DNA of 46,591 nucleotides from Cyanobacteria bacterium SIG27 (lineage in GTDB: Bacteria > Cyanobacteriota > Vampirovibrionia > Gastranaerophilales > Gastranaerophilaceae): the NCBI GenBank assembly GCA_015152565.1, contig SUTT01000013.1, positions 1 to 46,591 on the forward strand, written 5' to 3'. The notes beneath the pieces are model-generated. The model made no database searches, had not been told where the DNA came from, and saw only the letters and a list, made by a program, of their open reading frames with translations. Below are positions 30,223 to 38,186 of the stretch, piece after piece. Position numbers and translations under genes: made by a program. How positions within the stretch are numbered: position 1 is the stretch's first letter; every line of letters begins with the position of its first letter.

Positions 30223-31398
30223 TTATTCTTCAAATTCTTTAAATTTTTTTAGGGATTCATCTTTTTTCTTTTGAAATTCTTTTTGAGCTTGAATATCACC
30301 TTTATCAAGCGCTGCTTTTTGGATTTTGCTTTGTTCGCTTGCTGTTGTCTTTTTGAGTTTATAAACAAAGATAAGAATTTCAGCTACTGCTTTATATAAA
30401 TCAGGTGGAATTTGCCTGTTGATTTCAACCATTCTAAATAAAACCCTTGCAACAGGAGGGTTTTCGATGACTGGGATGTTGTGTTCTCTTGCAATTTGTT
30501 TGATTTTTTGAGCAAATAGTTCAGTCCCTTTTGCAACTAAAACAGGTGATTCCATTGTTTGAGCGTCGTATTTAATGGCACATGCCACATGCGTTGGGTT
30601 TGTTACAACAAAATCGCAAGTGGTAACAGCATCCATCATTTTTTGTTGCAAAAGCTGTTGTCTTCTTTGACGAAGAGCAGCTTTAACGTTAGGGTCACCT
30701 TCTGAGTTTTTATATTCATCTTTTACTTCTTTAAAAGACATTTTCTGATCTTGCAAAAATTTCCATTTTGTAACGCCATAATCGGCAGCAGCAATAATTA
30801 AAAAGGCGATACCTGCTTTAATTACAAAGTCTAAAATTAATGAACCAAATTGAATTAATATTGCAAAGTCATTATCAATTGCAGCAAGCATTAGAATGTC
30901 TTCAAAATGCGAAGAGTAAACAATATAGCCAATAATACCCAATATGACAACTTTCATTATATTTTTAAATAAATCAAATAATGTTTTTGGATTGGCAAGG
31001 TTTTTGAAATATTTTGTTGGGTTGAATTTTTCTGCGTTAAATTCCATTGGTTTTGTTGTAAACAGAGGTCCAATTTGAACCATATCTCCAAAAACGCCAA
31101 CAAAAGAGGCTAAAATTAATATTGGCAAAACGATTAACGCAGCAGGAATTACTGTTCTTGTAAATAAGTAAGCGTAGCCAATTTCTTCAAGATGTTTGTT
31201 TGGAATTTGCTCGTAAATCATCGTAAAAAGAGCAGTCAACTGCCCCCAGATTATAGGCCCTAAAAGATATATTGCGCTAAACATAATGATAATGGCAATT
31301 GCTGTGGATAAATCCTTAGATTTTACAACTTGCCCTTGTTCTCGAGCTTTTCTTAGCTTTTGTTGGCTCGCTTCATACTGTTTATTTTCGTCGCCCAT
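30223..31398 (-). CDS. flhB: Flagellar type III export switch protein FlhB
   Basis: Inner-membrane component of the flagellar export gate that switches substrate class from rod/hook to filament, 391 aa. The N-terminus EASQQKLRKAREQGQVVKSK, four transmembrane helices, and the cytoplasmic autocleavage loop with N267-P268-T269-H270 in VVTNPTHVACAIKYD identify the family. The C-terminal tail (SEQSKIQKAALDKGDIQAQK) is a charged extension. It begins 3 bp after the stop of the HerA-like gene and has no Shine-Dalgarno of its own, so translation is probably coupled. A non-flagellar SctU is unlikely because the only type III genes here are flagellar. Confidence 0.93.
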   Translation of the reverse strand: MGDENKQYEASQQKLRKAREQGQVVKSKDLSTAIAIIIMFSAIYLLGPIIWGQLTALFTMIYEQIPNKHLEEIGYAYLFTRTVIPAALIVLPILILASFVGVFGDMVQIGPLFTTKPMEFNAEKFNPTKYFKNLANPKTLFDLFKNIMKVVILGIIGYIVYSSHFEDILMLAAIDNDFAILIQFGSLILDFVIKAGIAFLIIAAADYGVTKWKFLQDQKMSFKEVKDEYKNSEGDPNVKAALRQRRQQLLQQKMMDAVTTCDFVVTNPTHVACAIKYDAQTMESPVLVAKGTELFAQKIKQIAREHNIPVIENPPVARVLFRMVEINRQIPPDLYKAVAEILIFVYKLKKTTASEQSKIQKAALDKGDIQAQKEFQKKKDESLKKFKEFEE

Positions 31399-31401
31399 TT
31401 A

Positions 31402-33906
31402 TTATTGTTCTAATGTTAAACCAGCAATCACTGGGTCTAGAAGTTTTCTTGTATTATCATCAAACACAACATTTACAAGCTGTCTGCCTTCATATAAGGT
31501 TACTTTTGTAATTGTTCCACGTCCAAAAGTTTTATGAACTACAATATCATCAGCTTTAAACATTGGTGCTTCTTGTTTTTCTTTTTCTTCATCTTTGAAA
31601 ATTGGTAAATTTTCTTTTTGTGATTTTGTTTCCAAAATATCGGCGCTTAATTTTGTTTTTTCGTCAACTTCAATCATTTCAGCGTTTTGCTGATTTTTGG
31701 TGTTGATTATTTCTTCAAAATTATTATCAATTGAATTGTCTGCAATTTCGTTTAAATCGATGTCATCTTCTTGGGAGTTGTTTTTGTTATCTTCTTCATC
31801 ATCATTATCTTCTTCGTCTTCATCGTCGCTATCTTGTGCCATTTGGAAGAAGTCTAGTTCATCGTCTGTTAACTCGTCATCTTCAGAATCAATTTCTTCA
31901 TTTGATGAATTATCAACAACAACATCTTCTGATGGGTCGATTAAGTCTGCATCTAGAACAGAAATTTTTTCTTGTTCTTCTTGTTTTTCTTGAATGTCAT
32001 CTTGGATATCGATTGTAGTTTCGCTATCATCGCTAAGAATTAAATCTTCGTCATCAACAAGGATATCATCTTGCTCTTCTTTATTTGAAACAATTTCTTG
32101 TGCTGAAATTTCTTTTGTTGGAAGTTCTTCATTGTCGCCAAGTTCTTCAAGTTCAACTTCGTTAGGGTTGATTTTTTGTGTTGGTTGTTCTTGAATGATT
32201 TCTTCTTCGATTTCATCAACAGTTTCTTCTTGAATTTCTTCAACAATTAATTCCGTTTCTTGTTCTTCATCAGAAGTTTCAAGGCTGATTTCATTTTCTT
32301 GTTGTGGCTGTTTTATAACTTCTTCAAGTCCTAAATCTTGAAATTCATCTTCAGATTCGGTTTTTATTTCAGCATGTGTAACATTATTTTCTTCAACAAT
32401 TAAATCTTCTTCTTTTAATTCAACTTCTTTTTGAATTTGAGGCTCTTCAATTTGCTCAAAAGTTTCTTGTTCTTCTTGTTTTTCTTGAGCTTTTAGAACT
32501 TCTTGCTGACTTGCTTCAAAGGCTGAAAGCTCTTTAATTAATATTTGAGAATCGGATAATTTTTCTTGTGCTTTTTGTTCTTGTTGAGCTTTATTTTCAA
32601 AGTAATCGCCTTTTTGACCAAGGTTTTCTTGTGCAATTTCTTCTTGGCTTGCAAGAGTTAGCGCAATTTTTCTATAGTTTTTTCTTTTTTCTTGAACTTC
32701 TAATTCATAATCTTTAATGATATATAAGAAATTATCAGTGTTTTCGCCAAATACAACACAACCATCTGAAATCAGATTAGACAGCGCAAAATTAGCATCC
32801 AAGAAGTCTTGTCTTTGATATAAACTTGGCATTAAGACATAGTTTTTGCAATGCTGCATTAATGTTGGCAATTTTTTATAGTTGTATGAAACATTTGGTA
32901 TAAATTTAATATTTTTCTTATTGTTGTAAATTTTATTGATTAATTCTGTACCAAAATGCTCGTCGTTAACTCTTGTGATTAAATATATTTCTTGTTCTAA
33001 GCTTGTTATAATGTAGTTAATGTAAGCTCTTTGCCAATAAGTATCAATTTCAGATAAGTCAATGATTGTTATTGGATTTTTTTCAATAGCTTTGAATAAA
33101 TTTTCTTTTTCATTTTTGGTTTTAGCGAAAATTTCATCCATTTGATATTTTTTTAATCTTGATAAAAGAAGTTTTAACTCAGGATATGGTGTTGCTTTGT
33201 GTTGCTGAATTAAAACACGAGTTAAAAGATTAAATGGAATAAATTCGCCTTCTTGTTTGCGTGCAAATTTTTTGATTTCGTTGATGATTTCAACGCCAAT
33301 AGCTTGAAATTCAAGGCTAGCGTCTTTAAGACATCTGTTAAACGCCCAGTCAATTGTTGTGTAATTTAAAGGCAGTTTAAAGTTTTTAGCTGCTTTAATT
33401 TTTTTAACGCCTTCAAGTTCTAAAATGCCTGTAGAATCAAGGATTACAACATTTCTTTTGTTTGATAATTTTTTAGCTAAGTTGAATGATATGCAGTTCG
33501 CATTTTCGATTTTGTCGGCTAAAATTATGGCGTTGTTGTTGAAAAAGTCATATTGGATATTGAATGAGCTTGAATTTTTAGTATTTGTGCCAAGAATAAA
33601 TGTGTCTTTATCTTGATTGATGAAATCTTCAATCTCGTCTTGATTTATTTTTACAATTTCACATTCTTTGTTTGGAGTGAAATTGTCATAAGGCATTACT
33701 TCGTTATTTTGAGTAATTCGATAGAATAGCTTTATTTTTGCAACATTTTGTGATGCATCAAATTTATCATCGTAAATTTCGATAATTTGAGCAATATATC
33801 TGCTATCATCTGATTTTACAACTAAAAAATCAAATAATCTGAAAGGCTCTATTCTGGGGTTAAATAGTATTCTTATGCTGTTGTTTAGAGTATTAGCTAC
33901 TTGCAT
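31402..33906 (-). CDS. HerA-like protein with degenerate P-loop, acidic linker and UvrD-type C-terminal domain
   Basis: An unusual 834-aa protein. Residues ~1-110 resemble a HAS-barrel (IEPFRLFDFLVVKSDDSRYI). Residues ~130-420 look like a HerA/DUF87-type ATPase core with strands such as NVVILDSTGILEL and NPITIIDLSEIDTYWQRAYI, but where Walker A should be it reads NNAIILADKIENANCIS, with no GxxGxGKS/T. Residues ~440-760 are an extremely acidic low-complexity linker rich in Glu, Asp, Gln and Asn. Residues ~778-834 (DIVVHKTFGRGTITKV, VNVVFDDNTRKLLDPV) match the tudor-like C-terminal domain of UvrD/PcrA helicases, which binds RNA polymerase or DNA. It forms an operon with flhB. Function unknown; the HerA relation is an inference. 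Confidence 0.75.
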   Translation of the reverse strand: MQVANTLNNSIRILFNPRIEPFRLFDFLVVKSDDSRYIAQIIEIYDDKFDASQNVAKIKLFYRITQNNEVMPYDNFTPNKECEIVKINQDEIEDFINQDKDTFILGTNTKNSSSFNIQYDFFNNNAIILADKIENANCISFNLAKKLSNKRNVVILDSTGILELEGVKKIKAAKNFKLPLNYTTIDWAFNRCLKDASLEFQAIGVEIINEIKKFARKQEGEFIPFNLLTRVLIQQHKATPYPELKLLLSRLKKYQMDEIFAKTKNEKENLFKAIEKNPITIIDLSEIDTYWQRAYINYIITSLEQEIYLITRVNDEHFGTELINKIYNNKKNIKFIPNVSYNYKKLPTLMQHCKNYVLMPSLYQRQDFLDANFALSNLISDGCVVFGENTDNFLYIIKDYELEVQEKRKNYRKIALTLASQEEIAQENLGQKGDYFENKAQQEQKAQEKLSDSQILIKELSAFEASQQEVLKAQEKQEEQETFEQIEEPQIQKEVELKEEDLIVEENNVTHAEIKTESEDEFQDLGLEEVIKQPQQENEISLETSDEEQETELIVEEIQEETVDEIEEEIIQEQPTQKINPNEVELEELGDNEELPTKEISAQEIVSNKEEQDDILVDDEDLILSDDSETTIDIQDDIQEKQEEQEKISVLDADLIDPSEDVVVDNSSNEEIDSEDDELTDDELDFFQMAQDSDDEDEEDNDDEEDNKNNSQEDDIDLNEIADNSIDNNFEEIINTKNQQNAEMIEVDEKTKLSADILETKSQKENLPIFKDEEKEKQEAPMFKADDIVVHKTFGRGTITKVTLYEGRQLVNVVFDDNTRKLLDPVIAGLTLEQ

Positions 33907-36560: not shown

Positions 36561-38126
36561 TTAATTTTCTTTGTTTCCTAATACAAAATAAGTAAATTCT
36601 ATTGCTCTATCTAGTTCTTCATTGAATTTTTTATATTGTCCAAAGTCGGCTTTCATATCGTCAGTTTGAATAAGTGCTCTTAGCTCAACTAAACCTTTTT
36701 GCAATGCTTTGAAATCTTGGTTGGTTTGTGCTTCAAAATCATAAGTTCCATCTTTTTTGATGGTAAATGTAGATTTGTAACTTGTTGTGCTTGTTGATAA
36801 GTTAACACGGAACAAGCCAATTGAATCATCTTTTTCTTTTAATTCTGCATAAACTGTCATTGTGGCATCCGGTGTTTTTTTGGTAAGTAAGAATGCTGGC
36901 GTATTTATTGTGTCAAATCTAAAGTTTCTTGCGATATTATAATAGGTTTTGCCGTCATCTTCCCATTTTTTAACAAGTGCTCTTTCGTTTGTATTATGAC
37001 CATATACGTCTTCTTGGACTGTGCGATCATCCTTTTTTCTAGTTTCTATAAATTTATATCCATTAAAATACTTAACTTCTCTTGAAGTGTGATTTTTGAA
37101 ATCTTTTTGAAAAACTCTATAGCTTTCTAGCCTTTTGCCGTGAACAAAAGGTTGCCCATCTTTCAAAACTAAATCAATAGGGTCAATAATGTTATCATTT
37201 TCATCATAGTATAATTCTAAAATGCCATTTTTAAGACTGCGATTTTCAATTGAAATTCTGCGATTTTCGGCTGCAATTCTAAGGTTTTCATCAATAACTT
37301 CTTGCAATTCATCTGGAATCATTGATTTCCAATCGTATGGGCGAGTTACATGCTCAGGTTGCCAATGAATATCCTTAGAATAATCTTTTACGACATATTT
37401 ATATTCATCTCCATGTGGTGGGAGTTGTTCATAATGCACTTGTAAGTTAATTAATTTTCCGCTATTTTTATCGTAACCTTTAACTAATGTAATTGAACCA
37501 GCATAATTATCTTTTGGATCAACCATTTTATTAACATAAATTTCTTGGGCAACATTTCCATTTTTATAAAAATGGATAGTATCAGGTTTAAGTTCTTGAT
37601 TTTCTAATAAATAATCGAATGATGACAAATCATCAACTGCTGGAATTGTTTCATAATTAGGGCCAAATTCTATGGTGTTAAGTTCGCCTGTAGGATAAAA
37701 TGTTGCAGATTTAATTCCTGCCCAATTATTAAATTTCCATTTTTGAACTAAACCGTTATCATCCTTTATTAATTCTTGGTCAATTGCTCCATACCAGCCA
37801 GAATGAGTCGTTAAAGAGCCGTTTTTATATCCAATTGCTCTTGTAATTTCTATATTTCTAATTAAATCTTTTACTTCTTTGATTGTAAAAGCTACATCGC
37901 TTTCAGGGTTATTTGATTCTGTGCAATATTGAAAAGGAGCTTCATACTCGTCTGGAGTAATTTGCGCCAATAAAAGCGCTTTGTTCATTTGGGCTTGTTT
38001 ATTCGCAAAAAGCCAATATTTATTTTCATCAAGTTGCGAGGTTTTTGGGCTAGTTACTATTATTTCGCCAAATTCTTCTATTTGTCTATCTTTAAAACTA
38101 ACATTATTAATCGCAGATATTCTCAT
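36561..38126 (-). CDS. Hypothetical protein, 521 aa, with N-terminal SFKD motif
   Basis: Unrecognised protein. I place the start at 38126 because GGGAGGCA lies just upstream of that ATG; a longer frame to 38186 adds 20 residues with no ribosome-binding site. The N-terminus MRISAINNVSFKDRQIEEFG bears the short aromatic motif seen in two other proteins here. The rest is soluble and beta-rich, with repeated phrases such as KWKFNNWAGIKSATFYPTGE, HFYKNGNVAQEIYVNK and VKYFNGYKFIETRKKDD that resemble antitoxin/MORN-like Y-x-N-G strand repeats. A Glu/Arg helical segment (AAENRRISIENRSLKNG) lies near residue 300. No catalytic motif is seen. Confidence 0.78.
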   Translation of the reverse strand: MRISAINNVSFKDRQIEEFGEIIVTSPKTSQLDENKYWLFANKQAQMNKALLLAQITPDEYEAPFQYCTESNNPESDVAFTIKEVKDLIRNIEITRAIGYKNGSLTTHSGWYGAIDQELIKDDNGLVQKWKFNNWAGIKSATFYPTGELNTIEFGPNYETIPAVDDLSSFDYLLENQELKPDTIHFYKNGNVAQEIYVNKMVDPKDNYAGSITLVKGYDKNSGKLINLQVHYEQLPPHGDEYKYVVKDYSKDIHWQPEHVTRPYDWKSMIPDELQEVIDENLRIAAENRRISIENRSLKNGILELYYDENDNIIDPIDLVLKDGQPFVHGKRLESYRVFQKDFKNHTSREVKYFNGYKFIETRKKDDRTVQEDVYGHNTNERALVKKWEDDGKTYYNIARNFRFDTINTPAFLLTKKTPDATMTVYAELKEKDDSIGLFRVNLSTSTTSYKSTFTIKKDGTYDFEAQTNQDFKALQKGLVELRALIQTDDMKADFGQYKKFNEELDRAIEFTYFVLGNKEN

Positions 38127-38156
38127 ATTGCCTCCCTGATGATATAGCTTATTGCC

Positions 38157-38186
38157 ATTATAATATGAAAAATAGCCCTCAAACAA
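38157..38186 (-). promoter_or_regulatory. Promoter of the 36561-38126 gene
   Basis: On the minus strand TTGTTT (plus 38181-38186) and TATAAT (plus 38157-38162) are spaced 18 bp apart, about 30 bp before the start codon at 38126. The -35 box lies inside the loop of the terminator of the upstream gene. Confidence 0.6.

Follow-up and report, generated by a model that had tools for sequence, protein, structure and literature searches.

What might a protein do that joins a HerA-like core without a P-loop to a UvrD-type Tudor domain, and does its position next to flhB say anything about its role? The question is raised by one gene in the window, by which we mean the whole 46,591-nucleotide stretch of DNA analysed here. 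The gene lies on the minus strand, at 31402-33906 as in the earlier note, and flhB follows on the same strand, 3 bp past its stop codon. Upstream are tRNA genes and tuf. The layout of the predicted protein, here called pseudo-HerA, runs from N to C terminus as a pseudo-HerA core, an acidic linker and a UvrD-type Tudor:

31402..33906, minus strand: whole pseudo-HerA gene, 834 amino acids, with its ATG at 33906 and its stop at 31402
33637..33906, minus strand: HAS-barrel-like beta domain, residues 1-90 (model strands and HerA alignment from residue 1)
32701..33636, minus strand: RecA/HerA-like core without P-loop, residues 91-402 (profile, fold and motif evidence)
31585..32700, minus strand: acidic low-complexity linker, residues 403-774 (net charge about -101)
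31405..31584, minus strand: PcrA/UvrD-type Tudor domain, residues 775-834 (profile and structure matches)
30223..31398, minus strand: flhB, of which this genome has a second copy elsewhere

Several independent tests establish this architecture; its function we infer. As a single query, the window protein matched only PF21196, at 0.029, and nothing in the PDB. Single-sequence searches were therefore uninformative, and family profiles were needed.

The HerA-like core and its missing P-loop

Searched against the PDB, the family profile found Sulfolobus solfataricus HerA as its best match (4d2i, E=2.5e-6). Pfam DUF87, the central domain of HerA, matched 18 of 34 family members, the best at 2.1e-9; the window core alone reached only 0.11. 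We also modelled residues 1-417 with AlphaFold, as a monomer only, from an alignment of 17 sequences from close relatives of the window. Confidence in this model is modest (mean pLDDT 61.9, pTM 0.52, with residues 93-139 and 335-417 below 50). Nevertheless, all 50 of the Foldseek matches listed were HerA or HerA-type complexes, again led by 4d2i (E=7.5e-11), with which VIA-align gave a Z of 13.3 over 328 residues. The model strands of the HAS-barrel-like domain are E2-7, E10-15, E27-32, E35-46 and E54-64, and residues 1-88/93 align also with the barrels of V/F-type ATPases. Compared profile to profile with three HerA proteins of relatives, the family scored weakly (probability 11%, E=0.003), probably because this HerA set is tiny. 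Pseudo-HerA has, then, the HAS-barrel and RecA-like fold of HerA. The earlier note had proposed such an N terminus and core, and the fold search on which its proposal hinged found the P-loop NTPase fold, with the P-loop itself absent.

The comparison with known HerA proteins drew on S. solfataricus HerA (4d2i), Deinococcus radiodurans HerA (7wrw) and the SIR2-HerA and DUF4297-HerA defence complexes. Like them, pseudo-HerA has its HAS-barrel at the N terminus, ahead of a RecA-like core, with a DxxG motif after the second strand and a fold match of about 330 residues; unlike them, it lacks Walker A and has gained an acidic linker and a Tudor at its C terminus. By eye, we recognised no NurA, SIR2 or DUF4297 genes among the neighbours in 30 loci. 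A role in anti-phage defence was considered and rejected, there being no PADLOC match.

The Walker A pattern [AG]x4GK[ST] occurs in the first 450 residues of none of 52 distinct family members, so that the absence of this motif, first seen in the window protein, extends to the family. The profile alignment to 4d2i sets the HerA P-loop LAATGSGKSN opposite laDkqeqknN, and in the window protein the P-loop would fall at about residues 126-137 (IILADKIENANC). The stretches expected to hold Walker B and the arginine finger, examined by eye, contain no DEA and SQRP motifs, and the profile-profile alignment is too weak to fix them; as far as the sequences allow a judgement, these two elements are likely to have been lost too. 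Because the P-loop is missing in every member examined, normal ATP hydrolysis is not expected, and the earlier suggestion of a scaffold lacking motor activity would be the natural reading. Since the 52 members include divergent families of the order, the loss of the P-loop probably predates the radiation of the Gastranaerophilales.

Could the core still bind nucleotide at an unusual site and serve as a switch, or hydrolyse ATP weakly? D157, the aspartate of the HerA DxxG motif, is invariant in the core alignment, several members retain the full DxxGE, and some keep a lysine at the position of the P-loop lysine. That lysine position is not conserved, however, and no member has a P-loop, and we consider a nucleotide switch highly improbable. 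A hetero-oligomer with an active HerA was also considered and is unlikely: among the DUF87 matches listed, the window's genome has one marginal short match, and the two strongest DUF87 genes of the order adjoin SIR2-like ORFs, as judged by eye.

Selection on the three parts of the gene was compared by dN/dS (Nei-Gojobori, five pairs), in ratios that are approximate because dS is near or above 1. The core gave values of 0.02-0.10, the linker 0.23-0.36 and the Tudor 0.08-0.51; in each of the five pairs the core was more constrained than the Tudor. Such strong purifying selection implies a conserved pseudo-ATPase rather than a decaying gene. Where a pseudoenzyme is strongly constrained, its role is usually structural or regulatory. 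The net charge of the core is slightly negative (-1 to -15), which speaks against a ring that clamps DNA.

The Tudor domain and its candidate partners

The extreme Glu/Asp content of the linker, remarked on in the earlier note, is confirmed: residues 431-760 hold 120 D+E and 20 K+R, a net charge of -100. The acidic bias is kept across the family, with a median of 33% D+E in linkers of 106-583 amino acids, and the linker is probably disordered.

Beyond it, the last 50 or so residues had been likened to the tudor-like domain of UvrD/PcrA, and profile searches uphold the likeness. PF21196 matches 26 of 26 members (best 6.9e-11), and the Tudor profile searched against the PDB finds the C-terminal domain of Escherichia coli UvrD (7egs, 4.5e-8), followed by other UvrD/PcrA chains. 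A model of the last 75 residues has a pLDDT of about 82-92 over residues 21-75, and its best seven Foldseek matches are all UvrD/PcrA Tudors. By fold and by sequence, the domain is of the PcrA/UvrD type.

Set beside its comparators (PF21196; 5dma, 7egs, 7egt and 9dqs), pseudo-HerA shares a Tudor of about 50 residues at the extreme C terminus, a long linker and a basic residue at the partner-binding position. This residue, aligned without gaps to the lysine of the E. coli UvrD GIK motif, is K or R in all 26 members. We provisionally take the GIK lysine to be the equivalent of PcrA K727, a position that we counted back from the C terminus of Bacillus subtilis PcrA. K727 of B. subtilis PcrA is reported to be critical for binding RNA polymerase (RNAP) (PMC8318588). 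The differences are that the pseudo-HerA Tudor sits on a dead HerA-like core, not on an SF1 helicase, and that a conserved LLDP segment follows its basic pair. No Pfam helicase-core family was found in the window protein, and the NCBIfam pcrA/uvrD matches in a related locus (L049) cover the last 100 residues only. An LPIFK motif just upstream of the Tudor (region 31405-31629) is invariant in 17 sequences from close relatives.

Another family with a related Tudor-like fold, the CarD/Mfd RNAP-interaction domain (PF02559), matches 24 of 26 members at a weak profile score, but PcrA/UvrD Tudors outscore it in profile and structure alike. Within the window's species, the Tudor omega is 0.44-0.51 against the L008 and L001 loci; three other pairs gave 0.08-0.14. 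The domain evolves faster here than in congeners, and partner preference may have shifted in that species.

Which proteins might such a Tudor bind? A helicase-interaction motif, [VIL]DxxTGE[VIL][VILT], has been defined in RpoB and UvrB, and in B. subtilis UvrB and RNAP compete for the Tudor of PcrA (PMC8318588). Scanning the window's genome with a degenerate DNA form of this motif gave six matches, against none for the reversed pattern used as a control; the six include proteins that would not necessarily bind a Tudor. UvrB, its identity confirmed by NCBIfam, carries the motif as IDAITGEII. RpoB of the same genome has no TGE in the 821 of about 1104 residues that were read, and the canonical motif has no match on the contig bearing rpoB. 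All 30 rpoB loci inspected share one short form of the stretch after RpoB lobe 2. In some outer families, VNRDTGEIK occurs near the RpoB N terminus, two positions off the motif.

The presence of the motif in UvrB and not in RpoB makes a partner in nucleotide excision repair more likely than RNAP. The earlier note had offered RNAP as a possible contact, and this suggestion is weakened. A scaffold bound to RNAP, with the Tudor on the beta subunit and the core touching DNA, would be in keeping with the structure of the E. coli UvrD Tudor, which was solved with an RNAP lobe (7egs), and with the weak CarD/Mfd matches; given the RpoB sequences, we think it quite unlikely.

A second protein with a PcrA/UvrD Tudor, of about 810-890 amino acids and presumably PcrA, is encoded in many of the same genomes, so any partners would be shared. 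This raises the idea of a competitor, in which the pseudo-HerA Tudor would occupy the binding sites of PcrA and limit recruitment of the helicase, while the core would set oligomer number and location. Two Tudors sharing partners, and the competition between UvrB and RNAP in B. subtilis (PMC8318588), are consistent with it. It leaves unexplained, however, why a dead core of 400 residues is more constrained than the Tudor in every pair compared, and we regard it as an outside chance rather than the likely answer.

Flagellar neighbours and distribution

The proximity of flhB had led the earlier note to link pseudo-HerA with flagellar expression or assembly. Among relatives, flhB adjoins the gene in 27 of 27 genomes of the window's genus and in 0 of 29 outside it. 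On fragmented assemblies some of these 29 loci are near contig ends, but most of the 29 have several kb of sequence without flhB. In other sampled genera of the family, the gene mostly comes after nadD-like (cytidylyltransferase-fold) and HD-domain yqeK-like genes. Several other families of the order have it after an ORF of 153 amino acids, with a yifB-like gene divergent from it. A few further flagellar neighbours do occur: fliS follows the gene in one genome (G032), and a protein with the FlhA cytoplasmic domain is encoded nearby in two (G043 and G050). Flagellar genes being numerous, this is about what chance would give, by an estimate made without formal calculation. Neither linkage to flagellar genes nor co-occurrence with them holds across relatives, and conserved operon structure names no partner.

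These observations bear on the possibility that pseudo-HerA is an accessory of the flagellum or of a second flagellar-type export set. In its favour are the unbroken adjacency of flhB within the genus and the scattered neighbours just described. Against this, the adjacency ends at the genus border and concerns one of two flhB copies, the gene is present where the FlhA of about 880 bits is missing (G010, G027, G033 and G034), and other families of the class in which FlhA is encoded twice lack it. The flagellar role proposed from the window thus finds little backing in relatives, and we judge it very unlikely.

The export genes and the 153-residue ORF are described here in their own right:

L067 6062-11639 (window genome, contig C7) and L068 9708-16093 (contig C32): two flagellar-type export sets
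G000:C52:7164-8207 (locus L069): third FHIPEP-family protein, also encoded just downstream of the pseudo-HerA gene in L045
L054 3577-4038, with equivalents in L042, L048 and L057-L063: ORF of 153 amino acids with a conserved WKG and a C-terminal DF.M motif

In the window's genus, most genomes encode two FlhB and three FHIPEP proteins. One export set combines an FlhA of about 860-890 bits with FlhB-FliR-FliQ-FliP; the other has an FlhA of about 716 bits, whose gene in the window's genome is grouped with fliF and fliH; no Pfam family matches the product of the gene separating those two. In G010 and G027, where the high-scoring FlhA is missing, what remains is the lower-scoring FlhA and, of the two flhB copies, the window-type one alone; that copy is the one kept together with the second FlhA type. 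This second FlhA is kept in nearly all members of the order, even where the first was not found. Several Gastranaerophilales are known to retain only a subset of flagellar genes (PMC4040986). The third FHIPEP-family protein, of about 490 amino acids, matches the FlhA profile only over its cytoplasmic-domain part (positions about 321-655) and occurs in most members of the order. A further window ORF, 36561-38186 on the minus strand (541 amino acids), matches no Pfam family at E 0.001 to 1.

The 153-residue ORF, without a credible Pfam match, immediately precedes the pseudo-HerA gene in 10 of 58 related genomes, all in outer families, and is absent from the window's genus. We rejected it as a general partner; with this distribution it could be at most a lineage-specific one.

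The distribution of pseudo-HerA itself is sharply bounded. Of the 58 related genomes examined at the outset, the window's own included, 57 are Gastranaerophilales, and 56 of these have the gene. The two without a match are G017, of the window's genus and 87% complete, and G057, the only one outside the order. A protein search returned 16 loci, of which 15 are entered under Candidatus Gastranaerophilales and the remaining one under uncultured bacterium. In the class, 37 of 117 genomes match the core profile, and in the phylum 130 of 292. All of these are Gastranaerophilales, with no match in the other lineages of the phylum sampled among those 292. Among the genomes listed, G147 (99% complete) is the only one of the same order without a core-profile match. 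Split matches aside, the searches show one copy in each genome that has the gene. We conclude that pseudo-HerA is a lineage-specific core gene of the Gastranaerophilales and is not flagellar. No named family in NCBIfam or PADLOC covers the whole layout, and a limited search of open-licence literature found no described protein of this kind, in agreement with the earlier note, which knew of none.

A possible ATP-independent platform

Overall, these data lead us to favour, tentatively, a model in which pseudo-HerA is a scaffold that works without ATP and bears a Tudor hook of the helicase type, UvrB being its first candidate partner. By sequence profile and model, the HAS-barrel and RecA-like core folds like a HerA subunit; with its P-loop gone, it would be incapable of normal ATP hydrolysis. 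To judge by how strongly purifying selection acts on it, the core probably still forms a ring or other oligomer, or docks a partner. From this core, a long, negatively charged and probably disordered linker leads to the PcrA/UvrD-type Tudor, which may capture proteins bearing the helicase-interaction motif, here UvrB and not RpoB. The overall effect would be to tether or sequester partners of PcrA/UvrD on a platform that works independently of ATP.

A bolder version, which we put forward as unlikely although conceivable, is that a HerA translocase was turned, throughout the order, into an ATP-independent ring with several Tudor hooks on acidic tethers, organising excision repair or helicase traffic. 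If the ring reading were true, it would be a repair or transcription hub without counterpart in other bacteria. The scaffold model makes a clear prediction, that the Tudor binds UvrB through the TGE hairpin of UvrB.

Our results also suggest that the PcrA/UvrD Tudor can be used as a portable hook outside helicases. The Gastranaerophilales, most of them uncultured, are a gut lineage that adjoins the photosynthetic Cyanobacteria. Being found only in this order and nearly universal within it, pseudo-HerA is a candidate core gene of the lineage's DNA or transcription biology.
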